From positions 1-35,362 of the forward strand of contig JAFGXP010000011.1 in assembly GCA_016936535.1 (NCBI GenBank): DNA of 35,362 nt. The letters run 5' to 3'. Position numbers and translations under genes: made by a program. Source of the DNA: Thiotrichales bacterium (GTDB lineage: Bacteria; Pseudomonadota; Gammaproteobacteria; Thiomicrospirales; Thiomicrospiraceae). Below, piece by piece: positions 1,155-9,417 of the stretch. The first letter of the stretch is position 1, and every line of letters starts with the position of its first letter. Under the pieces are notes generated by a model. That model saw only the letters and a program-made list of their open reading frames with translations, had not been told where the DNA came from and ran no database searches.

Positions 1155-3722
1155 TTAGATTCCAACCACCCTAGGTAAATCGGTGTATGCCTTAATCTCA
1201 ACAGCAATGCCGTCGAGTTTTTCTTGGGTTGTGGATGGTCTGACCTGTCCGCGCTCGATAGTGAACAGTTGTTTTGCCGGCTCTTCGGTGTTTACAAACG
1301 ATTTAAAGCGTTTGGTGAATTCCGGATTGTTAATCGCTTTTTGCCAGTCGCATTCGTAGGTGTCGATCAGCCCTGCCATTTGCGCTTCGAGTTGTTCGCC
1401 AATGCCAAGCGAGTCGTTAATCACCACGTCTTGCAGGTATTCCAATCCGCCTTCCATATTGTCCATCCAAGTGGCTGTACGTTGCAGGCGGTCGGCGGTT
1501 TTGACATAGAACATCAATAGACGGTCAACGTATTTAAAGACCTCTTCTTTGGTCAGTTTGGTGGCGAATAGATCGGCATGACGAGGTTTCATCCCGCCGT
1601 TACCGCACACAAACAGGTTCCAACCCTCTTCGGTAGAGATCAGACCGATGTCTTTTGCCTGCGCTTCGGCACATTCGCGGGTACAGCCGGAAACGCCCAT
1701 TTTAAGTTTATGCGGTGAACGCAAGCCTTTGTAGCGGTTTTCCATCTCAATCGCCATGGTCACGGAATCATCCAAACCGTAACGACACCAAGTAGACCCG
1801 ACGCAGGATTTTACGGTACGCAAGGCTTTGGCATAGGCTTGTCCCGATTCAAAACCGGCGGCGATTAAATCTGTCCAGATGGCTGGCAGGTCATTCATTT
1901 GCGCACCGAACAGCACAATACGCTGCCCGCCGTTGATTTTGGTGTAGAGATTGAATTTCTTGGCAACCGCACCCAAGGTAATCAGTTTATCCGGCGTGAT
2001 CTCTCCGCCCGGCACACGCGGAATCACCGAATAGGTTCCGTCTTTTTGCATATTGCCAAGGTAGTTGTCGTTGGTGTCTTGCAGCGGAATCTTGTCTTTT
2101 TCCAGCGCGTAGCTGTTCCAAAGCGAGCCGAAAATACTGCCTGCCGCCTGTTTACACACCGGACAGCCGTGTCCTTTACCGTGCTTGTGCAATAGGGTAT
2201 CGAAGGTTTTAATCTCTTCTACCTGACAAAGGTGGTACAGCTCTTGACGCGAATACGAGAAGTGTTCGCAAATGTCTTTACTGACTTCGACACCGCGTTT
2301 TTCCAGTTCGTTATTCAAAACATTGGTGACCAGTTGCGTACAACCGCCGCAGCCGGTACACGCCTGAGTGGTGGATTTAATATCCGCCAGGCACATGGCC
2401 CCGCCTTCCACCGCAGAAATCACATCGCCTTTGGAAACGTCGTAACAAGAGCAGAGTTGCGCGGTTACCGGCAAAGCATCCGGTCCGAAAAGCGCGCCAG
2501 CCGAACCGTCGCGATTCGGCAAAATCAGCCTATCCGGATGTTCCGGCAGTTCCATATCGTTGAGCTTTAACTGCAATAGATTGCCGTAATCATCAGAATC
2601 ACCGACCAGCACCGCGCCAAGTAGTTTTTTGCCGTCCTTGCTGACGACAATTTTTTTATAAATCTCTTCTGGCCCGTTTTCATACACATAACTCAGTGCA
2701 TCTTCGTCATTGCCGTGCGGATCGCCAATCGAGGCGACATCCACGCCCATTAATTTAAGCTTGGTGCTCATATCGGCACCGTCAAAACGGTTTTCGTTGA
2801 GATTCAATTGATCGACCACCACCTGCGCCATCGCATAACCCGGTGCAACCAGACCGTAGATCATGCCTTCATGCAACGCACATTCGCCAATCGCAAAAAT
2901 GCTTGGATCGGAAGTCAAACAGTGCGAGTTAATCACAATCCCGCCGCGCGGCCCCATTTCCAGTTCCGCCTGTTTCGCCAGTTCATCACGCGGACGAATC
3001 CCTGCCGAGAAGAGCACAATATCGGTTTCCAGCGTTTGACCGTCGGCAAATTCCATTTTGTTAAGGCAAGTTTCGCCATCGCTAATAAGTTGTGTCGCTT
3101 TATTAGTGTGAACCTTTACGCCCAGTTTTTCGATTTTGCGTTTTAGCAATGCAGCCCCGCCTTCGTCCAACTGCACCGGCATTAAACGCGGTGCGAATTC
3201 AACCACATGGGTTTCCAGATTCAGGTCTTTTAGGGCTTTCGCCGCTTCCAGTCCAAGCAGACCGCCACCGACGACAGTACCGATTTTGCCTTTGTCCGCC
3301 GCCGCTTGAATCGCATCCAAATCTTCAATCGTGCGATACACCAAACACCCTTCGCGGTCATTGCCGTTAATCGGCGGTACAAACGGATAGGAGCCTGTTG
3401 CCAGCACCAAACGGTCGTAAGCCTGTACCGAGCCGTCATCGGCAGTCACGGTTTTTGCCTCGCGGTCAATCGACACCACTTTTGAGTTCAGACGAATGTC
3501 GATCTGATTTTCTTCGTAGAAGCCGGGCTTAACCAGACTTAAATCGTCCGCGGTTTTGCCGGAAAAATACGACGACAAATAAACGCGATCGTACGCCTTA
3601 TGCGGCTCTTCACCGAAAACAATAATTTCGTAATTTTGGCGCGCTTCGCTTTTGACCAATTTCTCAATAAAACTGTGCCCGACCATGCCGTTACCGATCA
3701 CGACGATTTTTTGCTGTTGCAT
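1155..3722 (-). CDS. nirB: Assimilatory NAD(P)H nitrite reductase, large subunit
   Basis: It reduces nitrite to ammonium in the cytoplasm using NAD(P)H, FAD, iron-sulfur clusters and siroheme. The 855 residues match the usual NirB/NasB length. An N-terminal FAD-binding region (GNGMVG near residue 10) is followed by an NAD-binding motif (VGGGLLGLEA, 151-160). Next comes a BFD-like [2Fe-2S] domain with C424-x-C426 and C458-x2-C461, then a sulfite/nitrite reductase ferredoxin-like domain at about 560-630. The siroheme/[4Fe-4S] site has C640-x5-C646 and C680-x3-C684. GAGGAG precedes the ATG. It is the last gene of the minus-strand nas operon, 28 bases after the nasC-like gene. No nirD (small subunit) follows; the next gene is the convergent integrase. 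Klebsiella NasB works in a nas operon without a separate nirD, so function is still plausible. Confidence 0.95.
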   Translation of the reverse strand: MQQQKIVVIGNGMVGHSFIEKLVKSEARQNYEIIVFGEEPHKAYDRVYLSSYFSGKTADDLSLVKPGFYEENQIDIRLNSKVVSIDREAKTVTADDGSVQAYDRLVLATGSYPFVPPINGNDREGCLVYRTIEDLDAIQAAADKGKIGTVVGGGLLGLEAAKALKDLNLETHVVEFAPRLMPVQLDEGGAALLKRKIEKLGVKVHTNKATQLISDGETCLNKMEFADGQTLETDIVLFSAGIRPRDELAKQAELEMGPRGGIVINSHCLTSDPSIFAIGECALHEGMIYGLVAPGYAMAQVVVDQLNLNENRFDGADMSTKLKLMGVDVASIGDPHGNDEDALSYVYENGPEEIYKKIVVSKDGKKLLGAVLVGDSDDYGNLLQLKLNDMELPEHPDRLILPNRDGSAGALFGPDALPVTAQLCSCYDVSKGDVISAVEGGAMCLADIKSTTQACTGCGGCTQLVTNVLNNELEKRGVEVSKDICEHFSYSRQELYHLCQVEEIKTFDTLLHKHGKGHGCPVCKQAAGSIFGSLWNSYALEKDKIPLQDTNDNYLGNMQKDGTYSVIPRVPGGEITPDKLITLGAVAKKFNLYTKINGGQRIVLFGAQMNDLPAIWTDLIAAGFESGQAYAKALRTVKSCVGSTWCRYGLDDSVTMAIEMENRYKGLRSPHKLKMGVSGCTRECAEAQAKDIGLISTEEGWNLFVCGNGGMKPRHADLFATKLTKEEVFKYVDRLLMFYVKTADRLQRTATWMDNMEGGLEYLQDVVINDSLGIGEQLEAQMAGLIDTYECDWQKAINNPEFTKRFKSFVNTEEPAKQLFTIERGQVRPSTTQEKLDGIAVEIKAYTDLPRVVGI

Positions 3723-3750: not shown

Positions 3751-4980
3751 TCAAGCGGCTGAATTAAAACCTTGTCCAAACAAAACGGTATCTCTCATCT
3801 CAGTTATGTCCGTACCGTTTTGTAATAATTCAAAAAACCAATTGGCATCGTAGGTATCGCCGTACAGCAATGCGCCAACGACCTTGTTATCTTGCAAAAC
3901 CAACTTGCGGTAGATGTTTGCTTGCGGATCTCGAAAGATCAGCTCTTGGCAGCCCTCTCCGCCGTTAAAATTGCCTGCCGAAAATAGATTGATGCCGGTG
4001 ACCTTTAATTTGGTTGAGGTGAGCGAACCTTGGTAAGCCGCTTGCGTTTGCCCCCTTAAAACCTGCGCCAATACCTTGGCTTGTTCATACAGTGGCGCGA
4101 CCAAACCGTAGGTCTGCCCGCGATGTTCAACACACTCGCCTAAGGCATAGATATTGGCGTCTTCGGTCAGCAGTTGATCGTTGACGACAATGCCGCGATT
4201 AACTTCTAAGGTCGCCTGAATACCGAGTTCGACATTCGGACGAATACCGATTGCCATGACCAGCAGATCGCAAGGCAGCTGGCGACTGTCTTTTAGACGC
4301 ACCGCTTGAATATGATTTGCATCGGCATTAGCAACAATCTCGGCGACCTCATTGCCCATATAAAAACGCAAGGCTTTGGCTTCTAACTCGGTCTGCAACA
4401 TCGCCCCGGCTTCAACATCTAACTGGGCATTCATCAACACCTCACTGCGATGCACGACTGAGACTTGCATTCCCTGTTTTTGCAGACCATAAGCCGCTTC
4501 CAATCCCAACAGACCGCCACCGATGACCACCGCGTGTTTACCTCCGTCCGCCACCTGTTGCATCTTTTGCACATCGGCAATATCACGAAAACTGACCACG
4601 CCCGGCAGATGGGTATTGTCGATCGGCAAAATAAACGGCTTAGAACCGGTCGCGATAATCAATTTGTCGTAGCTAAACACCTCACCGCTATCGGTGATGA
4701 CTTGTTGCTGGCTACGCTTAATCGCAATAACCGATTTATCGGTATGCAAATCTATGCCGTTTGCCGCAAACCAGTGCGCATCATGGGTCATAATCTCGGC
4801 AATCGCTTTCTCTTTTGCCAACACCGGCGAGAGCATAATGCGGTTATAGCCGCCAAACGGCTCGCTATTAAAAACCGTTATTTGATAATCACTTCCCAAT
4901 GCCAACAACTCATCCAGAAAACGCGTCCCCGCCATACCTGCGCCAATCAGCAGCAAACATGGCTTAGATGGAAGCAACAT
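3751..4980 (-). CDS. nasC: NasC-like FAD/NAD(P)-dependent oxidoreductase of nitrate assimilation
   Basis: This 409-residue flavoprotein belongs to the pyridine nucleotide-disulfide oxidoreductase class I fold. It has an N-terminal FAD motif (LIGAGMAGTRFLDE), an NAD motif (VVIGGGLLGLEAAYGL, about 150-165) and the C-terminal FAD-contact motif IYALGECVEH. In the Klebsiella nas operon the gene at this position, NasC, passes electrons from NADH to nitrate reductase NasA. This copy ends soon after the FAD/NAD fold (…FGQGFNSAA) and lacks the C-terminal BFD-type [2Fe-2S] domain that longer NasC proteins carry. Its ATG directly follows the nrtD stop codon (TAAATG), so translation is probably coupled. 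The N-terminal half is clearly similar to that of the neighbouring nirB product, suggesting an old duplication. The electron acceptor cannot be told from sequence; NasA itself is not in the window. The symbol is given by position and domain type. Confidence 0.75.
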   Translation of the reverse strand: MLLPSKPCLLLIGAGMAGTRFLDELLALGSDYQITVFNSEPFGGYNRIMLSPVLAKEKAIAEIMTHDAHWFAANGIDLHTDKSVIAIKRSQQQVITDSGEVFSYDKLIIATGSKPFILPIDNTHLPGVVSFRDIADVQKMQQVADGGKHAVVIGGGLLGLEAAYGLQKQGMQVSVVHRSEVLMNAQLDVEAGAMLQTELEAKALRFYMGNEVAEIVANADANHIQAVRLKDSRQLPCDLLVMAIGIRPNVELGIQATLEVNRGIVVNDQLLTEDANIYALGECVEHRGQTYGLVAPLYEQAKVLAQVLRGQTQAAYQGSLTSTKLKVTGINLFSAGNFNGGEGCQELIFRDPQANIYRKLVLQDNKVVGALLYGDTYDANWFFELLQNGTDITEMRDTVLFGQGFNSAA

Positions 4981-5775
4981 TTACAACTCAACCTTGGCTT
5001 GTTTTTCGTATAGAAAACTTAATACGGCTTGGCGACAACGGTTGTACTCTGGGTTATCGGCCATCTCAATTCGGTTACGTGGCTTGGGCAGATTGACCGA
5101 TAAAATCTCACCAATCGTTGCTTTAGGGCCATTTGTCATCATTACAATCCGGTCTGACAACAAAACCGCCTCGTCCACATCGTGGGTAATCATCATCACC
5201 GTGCTGTTGAGTTCACCCTGTATGCGCATCACTTCATCTTGTAGATGGGCACGGGTTAAGGCGTCCAAAGCGCCAAAGGGCTCATCCAACAGCAATACCT
5301 TGGGTTCAAGAGAAAGCGCCCGCGCAATACCCACGCGCTGCTTCATGCCACCGGAAATCTGCGACGGTAGGCGATCCAAGGCGTGCGACATATGCACCAT
5401 ATCCAAACTTCTTAAGATCCAATCGTGCCGTTGCTGGGCGCTCATTTTGCCTTTAAAGGCCTTATTGACTGCCAAAGCCACATTTTCGTACACGGTCAAC
5501 CAAGGCAGTAAGGAGTGATTCTGAAACACCACACTGCGCTCAGGGCCGGGCCCTTTGATCTCTTTATCGTCTAGTAAAACAAAACCGCTACTGGCATCGA
5601 GCAATCCGGCCACCACATTAAGAATGGTCGATTTCCCGCAGCCAGAGTGGCCGATAATCGAGATAAACTCACCCTGGTTAACCGTTAAATTAATCTGATC
5701 TAAAACATGGGCCGCTTTAGCGCCTTGGCCAAAAATCATATCGACCTGTTCAATCTGCAAAAATTTCTCTTTCAT
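4981..5775 (-). CDS. nrtD: Nitrate/nitrite ABC transporter, ATP-binding protein (NrtD/NasD)
   Basis: ATPase subunit of the nitrate importer, 264 residues. It shows Walker A (GHSGCGKST), the Q-loop region (VVFQNHSLLPWLTV), the ABC signature (ISGGMKQRVGIARAL), Walker B with the D-loop (LLLDEPFGALD) and the switch histidine in MITHDVDEA. I chose the ATG at 5775 because AAGGAGC lies seven bases before it and the family similarity starts at KFLQIEQ. An upstream in-frame ATG at 5868 would add 31 residues overlapping the end of nrtB. It sits ten bases after nrtB and abuts the nasC-like gene. The related taurine/sulfonate and bicarbonate ATPases look alike, but the Tat-type nitrate-binding protein and nirB in the same operon support nitrate or nitrite as substrate. 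Confidence 0.92.
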   Translation of the reverse strand: MKEKFLQIEQVDMIFGQGAKAAHVLDQINLTVNQGEFISIIGHSGCGKSTILNVVAGLLDASSGFVLLDDKEIKGPGPERSVVFQNHSLLPWLTVYENVALAVNKAFKGKMSAQQRHDWILRSLDMVHMSHALDRLPSQISGGMKQRVGIARALSLEPKVLLLDEPFGALDALTRAHLQDEVMRIQGELNSTVMMITHDVDEAVLLSDRIVMMTNGPKATIGEILSVNLPKPRNRIEMADNPEYNRCRQAVLSFLYEKQAKVEL

Positions 5776-5785
5776 TTTCTGCTCC

Positions 5786-6592
5786 TTAGCTGGCCGAAGT
5801 GCCACGGGTAATCCGATTGCCAACCCACGCAACCGAGCGATCCAAAATAAATCCAATGACGCCGACATAAACCAACGCTAGAACAATTTCACTGATTTTG
5901 GATGAGTTCCACGCGTCCCAAATAAAGAAACCGATGCCAACGCCGCCAATCAACATTTCTGCGGCCACAATCGCCAACCAAGAAAGTCCAACGCCAATCC
6001 GCAGACCGGAAAAAATATAAGGCGCTGCAGCGGGCAGCATGATTTTGCTGAAATACTCAACCCCCCTTAGGTTCAATACCCGCGCCACATTGCGATAGTC
6101 TTCAGGAATATTGCGGATACCAACGGAGGTGTTAATGATGATTGGCCAGATTGCGGTAATAAAAATTACAAACAACGCAGAAGGCTGACTGTCTTGAAAC
6201 CCCGCCAATGAGAGCGGAAGCCACGCTAAGGGCGGCACGGTTCTGAGTACCTGAAAAATGGGATCTAAGGCACGCATTGCTAAGGTCGATTGACCAATCA
6301 ACACCCCCAAACTCACCCCAAAAATCACGGCCAAAGCAAAGCCATAGGCGACGCGCTCCAAACTGGCAAGGATTTGCCAACCCATGCCGACATCGGTTCC
6401 CCCATTGTCATAAAAAGGATCGATAATCAGCTCCCACGTCTCCGATAAGACTTGTGAAGGCGCAGGCAAGGTTGCTGAGGCGCCGGCCGTTAACCCCTCC
6501 CATAACAATAAGAAAAACAGCAGCATCAATAGGGGCGGTAACGCATGGTATTTGCTGTAGTTGAGCGCGCGGCTCATCAGGGATTCATTCAT
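5786..6592 (-). CDS. nrtB: Nitrate ABC transporter, permease protein (NrtB/NasE)
   Basis: Membrane channel of the nitrate/nitrite ABC importer, 268 residues from the chosen start. Hydrophobic spans begin near residue 20 (LPPLLMLLFFLLLWEGL) and continue through the binding-protein-dependent transport permease domain. The EAA-type cytoplasmic loop that contacts the ATPase lies around NLRGVEYFSKIMLPAAAPYI. The ATG at 6592 follows AAGGAG by six bases; an in-frame ATG ten codons upstream would place that ribosome site inside the gene, so it was not used. It lies between the substrate-binding protein gene (74-base gap) and nrtD (ten-base gap). Assignment to nitrate rather than taurine or cyanate rests on the operon context. 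Confidence 0.9.
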   Translation of the reverse strand: MNESLMSRALNYSKYHALPPLLMLLFFLLLWEGLTAGASATLPAPSQVLSETWELIIDPFYDNGGTDVGMGWQILASLERVAYGFALAVIFGVSLGVLIGQSTLAMRALDPIFQVLRTVPPLAWLPLSLAGFQDSQPSALFVIFITAIWPIIINTSVGIRNIPEDYRNVARVLNLRGVEYFSKIMLPAAAPYIFSGLRIGVGLSWLAIVAAEMLIGGVGIGFFIWDAWNSSKISEIVLALVYVGVIGFILDRSVAWVGNRITRGTSAS

Positions 6593-6666
6593 TCTTCTCT
6601 CCTTAAAGGTTTTTGCGCTCAAGAGCCTGATGGCTCAATGCACAGGCTCCAAGCGCAACCCGATTT

Positions 6667-7968
6667 TTAAACCGCTTTGACATTTTTAATGGTCAGACTG
6701 TCGAGATAGGCCTTCGGATTCGCTGGGTCAAAGACCTTGCCATCAAACAGGGTTTCGATGCCGCGCGAGGTGCCTTCTGGGATGGCACTGGCCTCCACCC
6801 CCAAGGCAATCGCCGCTTTACGCCACAAATCCTCACGATTCACTTGATCAATCACAGCCTGAGTATCCAAGTTGAGCGGCAGATAACCCCAGCGCTGATT
6901 CTCGGTTAAAAACCAAAGATCGTGGCTTTTAAAAGGGTAAGAAGCTTGGTCTTTCCAATAACGCATCTGCTCAGGATGGTTTTCAACAATTCGGCCGGTG
7001 CCATAATCAAAATTGCCCTGCATCCGATCCACAATGTCTTTGAAAGGCGCATTAATCCAGCGGCGTTTGGCACAGATTTTTGCGACCTCTTCGCGGTGTT
7101 CCGGCGCTTCGCAATAAATTTGCGCTTCCATAATCGCCATTAAGAGCGCTTGAGTCGCATTCGGATTCGCCGCAACGTAGTCGGCGCGCAACGCAAAGGC
7201 TTTTTCGGGATGTTGACTCCACAATTCACCGCTGGTCAGCGCGGTGTAGCCAATTTTTTGGTTAATTAACTGCTGATTCCACGGCTCGCAAACGCAAAAG
7301 GTATCCATACTGCCAACGCGCATATTAGCCACCATCTGCGCCGGCGGCACGACAATGGTATTGATTTGCTGGTTCGGGTCGATGCCGCCAGCAGCCAACC
7401 AATAACGCATCCACAAATCATGGGTTCCACCCGGGAAGGTCATGGCCGCATTGACCGCCAACCCCTTGGCTTGCTTGGCTTGTAATGCCGCTTTAAAGGG
7501 CGCACTATCGGTGCCAATCTTAAGGTCTTCATACTCCTTACCCACCGAAATACACTGCCCACCCAAATTCAAACGCGCCAAAATATGCATCGGGACCGGA
7601 ATATTGTTTGGTGTCATCGCACCGGTACTGATCAAATAAGGCATGGGGGTCAGGATATGACCGCCGTCAATCCCGCCCTTAGCGGATCCCAGTACAAGGT
7701 TGTCGCGCGTTGTTCCCCAAGAAGATTGCTTTAACACTTCAACGTCAGTCATGCCATGTTTGGCAAAAAAGCCTTTTTCTAAGGCCACAAATAAAGGCGC
7801 CGCATCGGTCAGCGCAATAAACCCGAGTTTGGCGGTTTTGGTTTCTAATTTACCAGGTATCGCGGCCAGCGCCTGCGAACTCAAGCCAGGAAACAGGCCG
7901 GCAGCGAGCCCTAAGCCTGCGGTTTTTAAAAAGCCTCTACGAGAGGATTTCAGGGTTGACTCAGACAT
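6667..7968 (-). CDS. nrtA: Nitrate-binding periplasmic protein with Tat signal (NrtA/NasF)
   Basis: Substrate-binding protein of the nitrate/nitrite ABC importer, 433 residues. The N-terminus has a twin-arginine signal (SSRRGFLK at residues 8-15) followed by a hydrophobic stretch and an Ala-x-Ala-like cleavage region (SSQALAA, about 30-36), so it is probably folded before export to the periplasm. No lipobox cysteine is present, so it is predicted to be soluble. The body matches the NrtA/CmpA type (LGFIALTDAAPLFVALEKGFF, then the region around GGTHDLWMRYWLAAGGIDP). AGGAGA stands upstream of the ATG. It is the first structural gene of the operon, directly downstream of the sigma-54-type promoter and the ANTAR-controlled leader. 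CmpA-type bicarbonate binders are close relatives, but nirB and nasR in the cluster argue for nitrate or nitrite. Confidence 0.92.
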   Translation of the reverse strand: MSESTLKSSRRGFLKTAGLGLAAGLFPGLSSQALAAIPGKLETKTAKLGFIALTDAAPLFVALEKGFFAKHGMTDVEVLKQSSWGTTRDNLVLGSAKGGIDGGHILTPMPYLISTGAMTPNNIPVPMHILARLNLGGQCISVGKEYEDLKIGTDSAPFKAALQAKQAKGLAVNAAMTFPGGTHDLWMRYWLAAGGIDPNQQINTIVVPPAQMVANMRVGSMDTFCVCEPWNQQLINQKIGYTALTSGELWSQHPEKAFALRADYVAANPNATQALLMAIMEAQIYCEAPEHREEVAKICAKRRWINAPFKDIVDRMQGNFDYGTGRIVENHPEQMRYWKDQASYPFKSHDLWFLTENQRWGYLPLNLDTQAVIDQVNREDLWRKAAIALGVEASAIPEGTSRGIETLFDGKVFDPANPKAYLDSLTIKNVKAV

Positions 7969-7992
7969 GGCATTTCTCCTTGGAATACAAAT

Positions 7993-8045
7993 AAAAAAAG
8001 GCGCCCATCAATCCCCGCACGCTGCAGAAACTGATGGACGCCTTT
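7993..8045 (-). terminator. Regulated intrinsic terminator in the nas operon leader
   Basis: Read on the minus strand, AAAGGCGTCCATCA (8045-8032) pairs with TGATGGGCGCCTTT (8010-7997), with one mismatch or G-U position in 14. Seven T (7999-7993) follow. This is a textbook Rho-independent terminator placed 24 bases before the nrtA start codon, where termination would silence the whole operon. Its 5' arm overlaps the second hexaloop hairpin at 8034-8051, so the two structures exclude each other. Confidence 0.88.
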
Positions 8046-8081
8046 GTCCATAAACGAATAATGAAACAGTCAACATTGACT
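8034..8081 (-). promoter_or_regulatory. ANTAR-binding tandem hexaloop RNA (NasR antiterminator target)
   Basis: The leader RNA (minus strand) forms two small hairpins with six-base loops. Hairpin P1 at 8081-8068 has stem AGTC/GACT and loop AAUGUU. Hairpin P2 at 8051-8034 has stem AUGGAC/GUCCAU and loop AAAGGC. Both loops have A at position 1 and G at position 4, the published signature of ANTAR-protein RNA targets. The 3' arm of P2 is also the 5' arm of the terminator, so NasR binding that stabilises P1-P2 would prevent termination. The nasR gene, encoding the NIT-ANTAR protein, lies just upstream. Sequence and pairing are seen; the mechanism follows from the Klebsiella nasF leader. Confidence 0.87.
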
Positions 8082-8094
8082 TTAAAATCCATAA

Positions 8095-8110
8095 GCACTT
8101 TAAATGCCAA
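8095..8110 (-). promoter_or_regulatory. Sigma-54-type promoter of the nas operon
   Basis: On the minus strand TTGGCATTTAAAGTGCTT gives the GG-N10-GC spacing of sigma-54 (RpoN) promoters, with GG at 8108-8107 and GC at 8096-8095. Transcription would begin near 8083, right at the first hexaloop hairpin, which leaves a leader of about 115 bases. Sigma-54/NtrC control of nas operons is established in Klebsiella. The motif and its fit to the leader are seen; use of the promoter is inferred. Confidence 0.7.
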
Positions 8111-8171
8111 CATGGATAAACACTTAATAAATAGGATTTATTGAAATTTTAAAAAATTTAAAAAATAAATT

Positions 8172-8200
8172 TGCACCAAAACAAATCAGAAATCGCACTA
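8172..8200. promoter_or_regulatory. Possible NtrC half-sites upstream of the nas promoter
   Basis: Plus-strand TGCACCA (8172-8178) and GCACTA (8195-8200) resemble half-sites of the NtrC consensus (TGCACC-N5-GGTGCA). They lie about 90-117 bases upstream of the predicted start, a usual enhancer distance. The two halves are in the same orientation rather than inverted, so this is a weak call. Confidence 0.3.
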
Positions 8201-8205
8201 TAAAC

Positions 8206-9417
8206 TTACATTTGCAACACCGCTTTTGCGACCTCAATCATCTTTTTACCTTGGTTCATCGCTTGATTACGCAGCCAAGCGTGGGCCGCTTCTTCACTGA
8301 GCCCACGCTGTGCTTGCAGTAGCATTTTGGCCTTTTGAATCACTTTCCGATCGAGCAAACTTTGTTGCGCCAAAACCAATTGCGCCTCCATTTCACTGAG
8401 CTGGCGAGTTTGCTGTTGAATTTGAGTGTGCAGCACACTGGATACACTGCCGGCTTGCGTCAATGAATCGGTGATTTCTGGGGCTTGACGCTGTAGCATT
8501 TTTTCAATTTCCACCACATCCTTGGCCATCAATTGTTCGGATTCGGCTAAACGCTTTGCGCTGATGATTTGCAACTGGTCCACCAATGTATTTTCTAAAC
8601 GCTGAAAGCCATCAATTCGCAAGGTCATCAACGCAAACCAGTCTTGAGCCGCTGGCGCATCGGCCTGATGATGAGAAGGGATACGCGCGCGCCAAGCGTC
8701 TAAATTCTGCCGATAGGGCTTGGCTTTAAGCTGGGCGAGCGTTGCTTTTTCGGTGTCACTGGCAAACAAACGAAAGGTTTCAAAAGCGTTAGCCTGCTGC
8801 TCAATCCGTAACTGCCAAGCCTCCAATAAGGTAGCGTTCGGCCCATAGGAAGCGAAAATGGCGGCCCCTAAAGCACGCTCCTGTCCAGCAAACTCTTTGG
8901 CTTGCATAAAATTAAACAGCGCCAACATGGCTCGGGTGACATCGCGATCCAGCGTATGTTCGGCCATTTCGAACACGGCCAACAAAACACGGTCAATCAC
9001 TTCACTAAAAGCCTGAATCGCCTGAAGGGGAGCAATCTGCTGCCGATCAATCTGCTGGCGTAACGCCGGCAAACTTAAGAGTATTTGCAAGCATCCAGCC
9101 AAGCGCAAATAAACTCCGGCGCTAATGGATTGCGATTGTGCTCCGAGGTTCCAATCGGAAATTAGAGGCGGCAAGCGTGCTAAATTCAACGCTAAATCGG
9201 AACGAAAAGTGGCAATTTTTTCTGCTTCAGGCTTTAGACCATGAGTGGTCAAATAGAGCACACTGGCACCGCGTTCGAGTTGCAAATCGTGGACGATTTT
9301 TTGCAGCAGGCGGACGCGCTCAGCCGCTGAAAACAGAAAACTGAGCGAGCGGGTTTGCGCTTGCTTGCTTAACAAAACCAGTTGAGCAATTTGCGCGTGA
9401 AAACGAGGCGTGGGCAT
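8206..9417 (-). CDS. nasR: NIT-ANTAR nitrate/nitrite-responsive antitermination protein (NasR)
   Basis: Cytoplasmic RNA-binding antiterminator of 403 residues, close to Klebsiella NasR. The N-terminal two thirds form a NIT sensor domain, recognisable near residues 45-80 by LQLERGASVLYLTTHG followed by the conserved arginine region ATFRSDLAL. NIT domains bind nitrate or nitrite. The C-terminal ANTAR domain (about residues 340-400) contains RKVIQKAKMLLQAQRGLSEE and ends in a helical segment with the conserved alanines. A helical linker (residues about 290-350, rich in Q, L and E) probably forms a coiled coil. AGGGAA lies upstream of the ATG. It is transcribed in the same direction as the operon it controls; its own 3' end abuts the nas promoter region. 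Its RNA target is visible at 8034-8081. Confidence 0.92.
   Translation of the reverse strand: MPTPRFHAQIAQLVLLSKQAQTRSLSFLFSAAERVRLLQKIVHDLQLERGASVLYLTTHGLKPEAEKIATFRSDLALNLARLPPLISDWNLGAQSQSISAGVYLRLAGCLQILLSLPALRQQIDRQQIAPLQAIQAFSEVIDRVLLAVFEMAEHTLDRDVTRAMLALFNFMQAKEFAGQERALGAAIFASYGPNATLLEAWQLRIEQQANAFETFRLFASDTEKATLAQLKAKPYRQNLDAWRARIPSHHQADAPAAQDWFALMTLRIDGFQRLENTLVDQLQIISAKRLAESEQLMAKDVVEIEKMLQRQAPEITDSLTQAGSVSSVLHTQIQQQTRQLSEMEAQLVLAQQSLLDRKVIQKAKMLLQAQRGLSEEAAHAWLRNQAMNQGKKMIEVAKAVLQM

Follow-up and report, generated by a model that had tools for sequence, protein, structure and literature searches.

Does the 237-base gap between nasR and nasF, on the minus strand of the 35,362-nucleotide stretch of DNA analysed here (the window), control the nas genes behind it, or does it simply end the nasR transcript? 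On the evidence of its sequence, the gap very probably holds a nitrate-responsive NasR/ANTAR attenuator placed behind an NtrC/sigma-54 promoter. The kind of switch is already known, and the window adds a well-supported NasR/sigma-54 example from the Thiomicrospira lineage, from a family that includes genome G237. It is a clean independent example, but its greater value lies in the material it offers, together with a simpler, probable second leader in the same genome, on the question of whether two hairpins are needed.

Anatomy of the leader

The features of the locus are collected in Table 1. The leader had been described in the initial annotation as carrying two hairpins with six-base loops that keep A1 and G4, the second sharing its 3' arm with a terminator, and both descriptions hold. 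P1 and P2 are present on the minus strand, with A1 and G4 in both loops, and a C-G pair closes each of them. Together they show the stem of at least 3 bp, the hexaloop and the A1/G4 residues of the ANTAR-target dual-hexaloop class, and both loops have the C:G closing pair known from NasR SELEX. A linker of 16 bases runs from the end of P1 (8068) to the start of P2 (8051). The terminator overlaps P2 at 8045-8034, i.e. over the P2 loop and 3' arm, and the two structures are mutually exclusive, as in ANTAR-target antiterminators. The seven U ascribed to the terminator were found at 7999-7993; its stem, given earlier as 14 bases, consists of 23 consecutive pairs.

Table 1. Features of the nasR-nasF locus in the window (positions on the forward strand)
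Feature	Position	Strand	Basis or remark
nasR, NIT-ANTAR nitrate-responsive antiterminator, 403 aa	8206..9417	-	Pfam NIT + ANTAR; PDB 4akk match
Two same-strand GTGC half-sites 22 bp apart (AGTGCG ... TTGGTGCA), at 8198-8195 and 8176-8173	8173..8198	-	possibly NtrC-type enhancer half-sites
Sigma-54-type promoter TTGGCATTTAAAGTGCT (GG-N10-GC)	8094..8110	-	comparable element precedes P2 in relatives
Predicted transcript start, 12 bases downstream of the C in the -12 GC	8083	-	predicted from promoter position
P1 hexaloop hairpin AGUC[AAUGUU]GACU	8068..8081	-	4 bp stem; similar stems in relatives
P2 hexaloop hairpin AUGGAC[AAAGGC]GUCCAU, antiterminator	8034..8051	-	6 bp stem; covariation
Intrinsic terminator, 23 pairs, 3-base loop, seven U	7993..8045	-	fold and covariation
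nasF, NMT1-type substrate-binding protein, Tat-type signal match, predicted first gene controlled	6667..7968	-	Pfam NMT1_2 2e-103
nasE, ABC transporter permease	5786..6622	-	domain matches
nasD, ABC transporter ATPase	4981..5868	-	domain matches
nasC-like FAD reductase	3751..4980	-	domain matches
nasB/nirB nitrite reductase large subunit, last nas gene of window	1155..3722	-	TIGR02374, 1071.6 bits

Folding of the leader, proposed earlier as a check, bore the architecture out: the folding energy is -43.3 kcal/mol, where shuffled sequences average -21.1 (z -8.2), and the terminator forms with its 23 pairs. When the leader is cut after P2, it folds as P1 + P2. In both the full and the P2-truncated folds the P1 loop gains an A1-U6 pair in the energy model, turning it into a tetraloop; such a pair would hide A1 and is a point against. 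When the 237-base intergenic region was dinucleotide-shuffled 5000 times, A1/G4 hexaloop hairpins with a C-G closing pair arose at least once in 157 shuffles and at least twice in 2, and a hexaloop with an overlapping terminator arose in 6. As P1, P2 and the terminator never occurred together (0/5000), the architecture is not due to chance. For P1, the chance of arising in the window stretch is 0.019.

Promoter and upstream sites

The sigma-54-type promoter had been said to set the predicted start right at the first hairpin, and indeed the predicted +1 (about 8083) lies two bases 5' of P1, which starts at 8081. The promoter element alone is weak evidence, because an equally good sigma-54 match was obtained in 324 of 5000 shuffles; the claim is made because the element recurs at the same place in relatives. 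A TGG-N10-G(C/T) element stands upstream of P2 in all 32 leaders compared, with a pattern that is permissive, was placed by hand in three leaders and, for the P11 matches, is contained in the model itself (see below). The -12 position reads GT instead of GC in nine of the 12 nasR-linked family leaders (L093-L098, L100-L102), while the window keeps GG-N10-GC. The genome encodes rpoN (430 bits, above cut-off) and ntrC (659 bits, above the curated cut-off), and all three marks of sigma-54/NtrC control, the GG-N10-GC element and the two genes, are thereby present. No sigma-70-like site was found on the minus strand within 7900-8300.

Further upstream, GTGC pairs may represent half-sites for NtrC, separated by two or three turns of the helix. 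Their spacing is 21-22 bp in seven of eight leaders and 32 bp in the eighth. A same-strand pair, spaced by 19-22 bp or, in G243, by 32 bp, lies upstream of the sigma-54 element in 11/11 nasR-linked family leaders, a count that leaves out G236. The best NtrC-consensus score at the window leader is 10/13, a weak match that was equalled in 40 of 1000 shuffles.

Relatives of the leader

The initial annotation had suggested a search with an Rfam-type ANTAR-target covariance model. This check failed in its original form, in that no Rfam family reaches its gathering cut-off in the window leader, and for this reason the test was replaced by models of our own. Model R2, built in this analysis from 24 leaders without those of the window and contig C11, and covering P2 and the terminator but not P1, matches the window leader with 50.2 bits (E 4e-10 in 47 kb), which places it in the ANTAR-target class by our own, not a published, model.

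The search for NasR relatives covered named genomes (28 loci) and 62 genomes of the family, two sets that partly overlap. A NasR-type protein, called at a score of at least 145 bits (the next match has 63.5 bits), is encoded in 12 of the 62 family genomes. In all 12, a P2 hairpin overlapping a terminator lies just 3' of nasR, with the terminator of G220 read by eye; departures from the P2 pattern are a U at loop position 1 in G018 and a U-G closing pair in G018 and G220. A leader was recognised in 16 of the 28 named loci. Seven of these, from Microbulbifer and Alteromonas (L036, L041, L042, L043, L044, L046, L050), have the leader 5' of, and divergent from, nasR; they were missed by the hairpin patterns and found by R2, and they stand outside the alignments and the P1 count. 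In the four of these divergent leaders that were read, P2 is GGAU[AAAGGC]GUCC or GGAU[AAAGAC]GUCC. The other nine are L031, L032, L033, L035, L037, L039, L040, L047 and L058. In the remaining 12 loci, mostly from Alteromonas (L034, L038, L045, L048, L049, L051-L057), no leader was recognised within the stretch examined. The Halothiobacillus MAG locus L058 contains, in a 9-kb stretch, two AGAC[AAAGGC]GTCT hairpins with sigma-54-like boxes on the minus strand near 3644 and 280, which suggests several leaders per regulon.

Model R1, which includes the window leader, was used at a threshold of E 0.01 and matched in 15 of the 62 family genomes, i.e. the 12 with NasR together with G010, G209 and G212, whose ANTAR proteins are shorter and NasT-sized. 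The match in G010, which is without a sigma-54 element, is doubtful. Model matches occurred in 15/40 genomes with an ANTAR-region match vs 0/22 without one (split by eye; Fisher 5e-4). Tandem NasT-sized ANTAR ORFs, about 600-700 bp apart, were observed in several genomes of the same genus (G007, G008, G009, G010, G021).

In the 26-leader alignment, the P2 stem is paired in 104/104 cells with 12 double changes, and its variants are GGAC/GUCC, GAGC/GCUC, AGAC/GUCU and CGAC/GUCG; this paired percentage is biased upward because many of the 26 leaders came from the hairpin search. For the terminator, 92% of 312 cells are paired, and both sides vary in seven of its 12 pairs, among them pairs that join the P2 loop to the 3' arm of the terminator (AAAGGC with GCC, AAAGAC with GUU). 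Sliding by 1-3 columns lowers pairing to 28-49% for P2 and 39-66% for the terminator. Column shuffles did not reach the P2 values for paired cells, for cells with double changes or for the covariation score (each 0/500); P2 is not above the shuffles in both-side-changed pairs (50/500 as high) or further pair types (428/500). The terminator exceeds them in all five measures (0, 1, 0, 9 and 0 of 500). The first alignment (A1) was made without G220 and G060; the second (A2) restored G220 and left out G060, and is also without L047, the second L058 leader, G243, G209, both G212 leaders and G012b. Collectively, comparison of the sequences supports both of the exclusive structures through covariation in relatives.

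The nearest sensible Rfam relative is RF00625, the Pseudomonas sRNA P11, with 21.5 bits (E 0.0036); the window leader thus stays below the family's gathering score of 70. P11 was kept as a relative because sigma-54 box, P2 and terminator align: the common features, at 8000-8121 of the window, are a TTGGCA...TGC sigma-54-like element, the GGACAAAGGCGUCC hairpin and the overlapping terminator. Other relaxed matches were set aside, namely mir-934 (E 1.3e-4, the best of them), mir-95, MIR950 and the like, which match the long hairpin, and BTnc201, trpB and narK, whose E-values (0.012, 0.075 and 0.13) are weak. In 185 genomes of the window's class, P11 had one match above cut-off, before nirB (G186, L084:1500-1644), and eight others. 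The anatomy of RF00625 P11, judged by its sequence, suggests a sigma-54/ANTAR attenuator leader, P11 being the terminated leader of such attenuators. A limited literature search found no paper that treats nalA, P11 and Pseudomonas aeruginosa together, and we do not claim that the identity of P11 with the NalA leader is unpublished. If the P11 of Rfam and that of work on C. elegans are one RNA, this is the sRNA that has been reported to affect C. elegans behaviour (PMC12080996).

The NasR protein

The reader gene adjacent to the leader was correctly recognised from the outset as a NIT-ANTAR gene. Both domains occur in one protein (NIT 5e-42 at residues 41-283, ANTAR 4e-16 at 351-401), as in NasR-type proteins; the best PDB match is NasR 4akk (2e-27; 99 bits with phmmer), and no other ANTAR protein was found in the genome. 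At the positions of K. oxytoca R50, R176, R236 and R340 the protein has the same residues; R50 and R236 presumably belong to the nitrate-pocket/RNA-binding residue set. N373 of K. oxytoca is replaced by Gly in the window NasR, and W362 by His both here and in all 12 family NasRs. An Ala change at W362 severely cut RNA binding in K. oxytoca NasR, as reported (PMC7496416). The published autoinhibition pairs are kept only on some sides, and most NIT-side partners differ in the window NasR. In view of these differences and of the His at W362, the coupling of NIT and ANTAR may differ.

R340 of K. oxytoca NasR is reported as essential for RNA binding (PMC7496416). The NasRs of G012, G024 and G220 have Gln at this position, followed by Arg, and the Alteromonas NasR of L045, a locus without a recognised leader, also has Gln there. 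In the NasR tree, G012, G024 and G220 form one clade (100/99), and the window groups with G237, G238, G077, G236 and G243 (100/100).

A probable second leader in the same genome

The switch had been called complete. This is right for the locus, where all elements are present, but it overlooked contig C11 (L127:1200-1408), where the regulon probably has a second leader, before nirD-nasA-cysG. Its P2, GAGC[AATGAG]GCTC, overlaps a terminator; an NtrC-like site TGCACTTTTATGGTGCT scores 12/13 (0/1000 shuffles as good), and a sigma-54-like element TTGGCGCGTTGTTTGCA is present. In the 120 bases 5' of this P2 there is no A1/G4 hexaloop with a stem of at least 3 bp. From its sequence the C11 leader is probably of the same type as that of the window. 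Its membership is less sure than the window's because R2 gives 21.6 bits (E 6e-4 in 9 kb) only with filters off and misses it with default filters. A single-target regulon was considered and rejected: the C11 leader has another P2 sequence.

Within the genome, the pattern ACAANGGCGT occurs at 21 sites; checked on both strands, three of them have stems of at least 4: the window (6), L075 (6) and L072 (4). The L075 and L072 sites lie in long open frames, have no sigma-54-like box or T run, and were dismissed as chance. A search with the C11 hairpin yielded no other exact site in the genome and 35 sites with one or two mismatches; the one that was looked at, the single-mismatch site L158, is coding. 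The model search of the genome missed C11 even though C11 was in its seed (150/576 candidates scored), so no leader count for the genome can be taken as complete.

At the contig's left end, at 150-1130 of the window, lies an integron integrase (TIGR02249, 440 bits), convergent with nasB and about 25 bp from it. Contig C11 starts with a partial OXA-type class D beta-lactamase ORF, below family cut-offs, and also carries a GFA-family ORF before nirD-nasA, both within L127:60-1143. The two nas units may be separated by an integron, although the adjoining of the contigs is supposition. We considered that an integron split the nas operon and thereby created the second leader. However, G012 (L151) has a very similar leader before nirD-nasA, about 18 kb from its nasF leader, so no integron is needed to explain it. 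In G237, a Rieske-type ORF as large as nirD and a molybdopterin enzyme of the nasA type come directly after nirB; the ORFs of G238 match these in size and order, and one leader was found in the nas stretch of each genome. A plasmid search with the window leader gave no match.

Needed or optional: the first hairpin

A canonical P1 was defined by A1, G4, a stem of at least 4 bp and a position 3' of the predicted start and 5' of P2. Of 32 leaders (counted without G010), 16 have one, against 1.06 expected by chance, and P1 is therefore real as a class feature. The AGUC-type stem is common to the window, G237, G238, G209 and two G212 leaders; across this set, loop positions 2, 3, 5 and 6 vary and A1 and G4 are constant. 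Its distribution is uneven. Among leaders of family NasR genomes, three of 16 have a canonical P1 (window, G237, G238) and 13 are without; in the NasT genomes G209 and G212 it is present in 3/3, and elsewhere in 10/13. The P1 label is not more clustered on the NasR tree than in shuffles (82/500 as low). From predicted start to P2 there are 12 nt in G012, 9 nt in G024 and 13 nt in G220, distances that depend on the promoter call (with GT at -12 in G012 and G024). As 9-13 nt are fewer than the 14 nt of the hairpin, these leaders have no room for P1.

What is reported for known systems bears on this in several ways. P1 was found to be essential in the EutV work, and structural work on EutV asks why both hairpins are needed if the dimer binds one (PMC8934654). 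K. oxytoca NasR binds P2 alone, if more weakly, at about 12 uM (PMC7496416). In the eut leaders of E. faecalis P1 and P2 are separated by 5-12 nt, and induction suffered when the eutP linker was 14 nt long (PMC3369931); a 20-nt linker extension abolished antitermination in vitro (PMC8934654). The 16-base linker of the window leader exceeds the eut range, and its P1 stem has no more than four pairs; both are points against the switch. For NasR, no linker limit was found stated in the literature. We tentatively propose that P1 is optional for NasR-type antitermination, an idea that we find possible while leaning slightly against it: one NasR would read the two-hairpin leader of the window and the one-hairpin leader of C11, and G012, G024 and G220, which lack room for P1, have Gln at R340. 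Naturally occurring leaders, some that have P1 and some that lack it, to all appearances read by a single NasR, would offer a direct test of the need for two hairpins.

Proposed mechanism and alternative explanations

The start site, NtrC binding, NasR binding and nitrate response of the scheme below are predictions; the elements, their conservation and covariation, and the genes are read from the sequence. When nitrogen is limiting, NtrC~P would activate RpoN polymerase at 8110-8094, probably from a site near 8173-8198. The transcript would start at about 8083, with P1 and P2 folding as they emerge. Without nitrate, NasR would not hold P2; the 5' arm of the terminator, which includes the P2 loop and 3' arm, would pair with the terminator's 3' arm, and transcription would stop in the U run, giving a transcript about 91 nt long. 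In the presence of nitrate or nitrite, the NIT domain would release the ANTAR domain, NasR would bind the hexaloops and P2 would persist, blocking the terminator and allowing nasFED-nasC-nasB to be transcribed. If either signal, nitrogen limitation or nitrate, were absent, nas expression would stay low.

Could the stem-loop instead be the nasR terminator, or a processing or stability element, with nasF transcribed from elsewhere? A strong intrinsic terminator does stand 3' of nasR and could serve nasR transcripts too. However, a plain terminator needs no conserved hexaloop, no A1/G4, no sigma-54-like element upstream and no covariation of P2. The module also occurs at sites other than the 3' end of nasR: it precedes a nasC-like gene in G236 and G077 and nirD-nasA in G012, and it is present at the seven divergent Microbulbifer/Alteromonas loci. 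We regard this alternative as highly improbable. Equally slight is the likelihood that the product is a small trans-acting P11-type RNA, with attenuation secondary. Terminated RNAs of about 91 nt would accumulate without nitrate, and RF00625, the nearest sensible relative, is filed as an sRNA and has the same sigma-54-like element and GGACAAAGGCGUCC hairpin in its consensus; against this, the P11 score is far from gathering (21.5 vs 70 bits), and the sole match above cut-off in the 185 class genomes precedes nirB, as expected of a leader.

Doubt about the promoter carries a little more weight, although it too is unlikely to be justified: the promoter may not be sigma-54, and another one further upstream may read through the leader. 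The frequency of equally good matches in shuffles and the GT at the expected -12 GC in most nasR-linked family leaders are in keeping with this, whereas the recurrence of the element in all leaders compared (by a permissive pattern), the intact GG-N10-GC of the window and the lack of a sigma-70-like site around it argue for sigma-54. The NasR/ANTAR attenuator behind an NtrC/sigma-54 promoter thus remains our preferred reading.

Comparison with known systems

Klebsiella oxytoca has the nasR-nasF gene order and the promoter type seen in the window. The initial annotation had seen the elements of the Klebsiella system here with different sequence, and this is what the analysis found in the NIT-ANTAR gene, the dual hexaloop with terminator, the sigma-54-type promoter, and rpoN with ntrC. 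The K. oxytoca nasF leader and its NasR share with the window a NIT-ANTAR reader, two hexaloop hairpins of which the second overlaps the terminator, and nitrate as the signal, predicted in the case of the window (PMC3369931, PMC7496416). Unlike in K. oxytoca, however, the sequences are others, NasR reaches 99 bits to 4akk and has His for W362, and nirD-nasA stands on another contig with a probable leader of its own.

The E. faecalis eutP leader, read by EutV, is alike in its dual hexaloop, A1/G4 and a P2 overlapping the terminator, but belongs to a two-component ethanolamine system and to leaders with linkers of 5-12 nt vs 16 in the window (PMC3369931). RF00625 P11 shares the TTGGCA...TGC element, GGACAAAGGCGUCC and the overlapping terminator, and its G186 member precedes nirB; it differs in that the window scores below gathering and in being filed as an sRNA gene. 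In the Pseudomonas NalA leader of nirBD, as is predicted for the window, a sigma-54/NtrC start and ANTAR antitermination act in series on assimilatory nitrite reductase, but the reader is NasT, released by NasS, whereas the window's reader is a one-piece NIT-ANTAR sensor (PMC12830290). The joint requirement for nitrogen limitation and nitrate, deduced here from sequence, would be the logic of Klebsiella (PMC7496416, PMC3369931) and of Pseudomonas NalA (PMC12830290).
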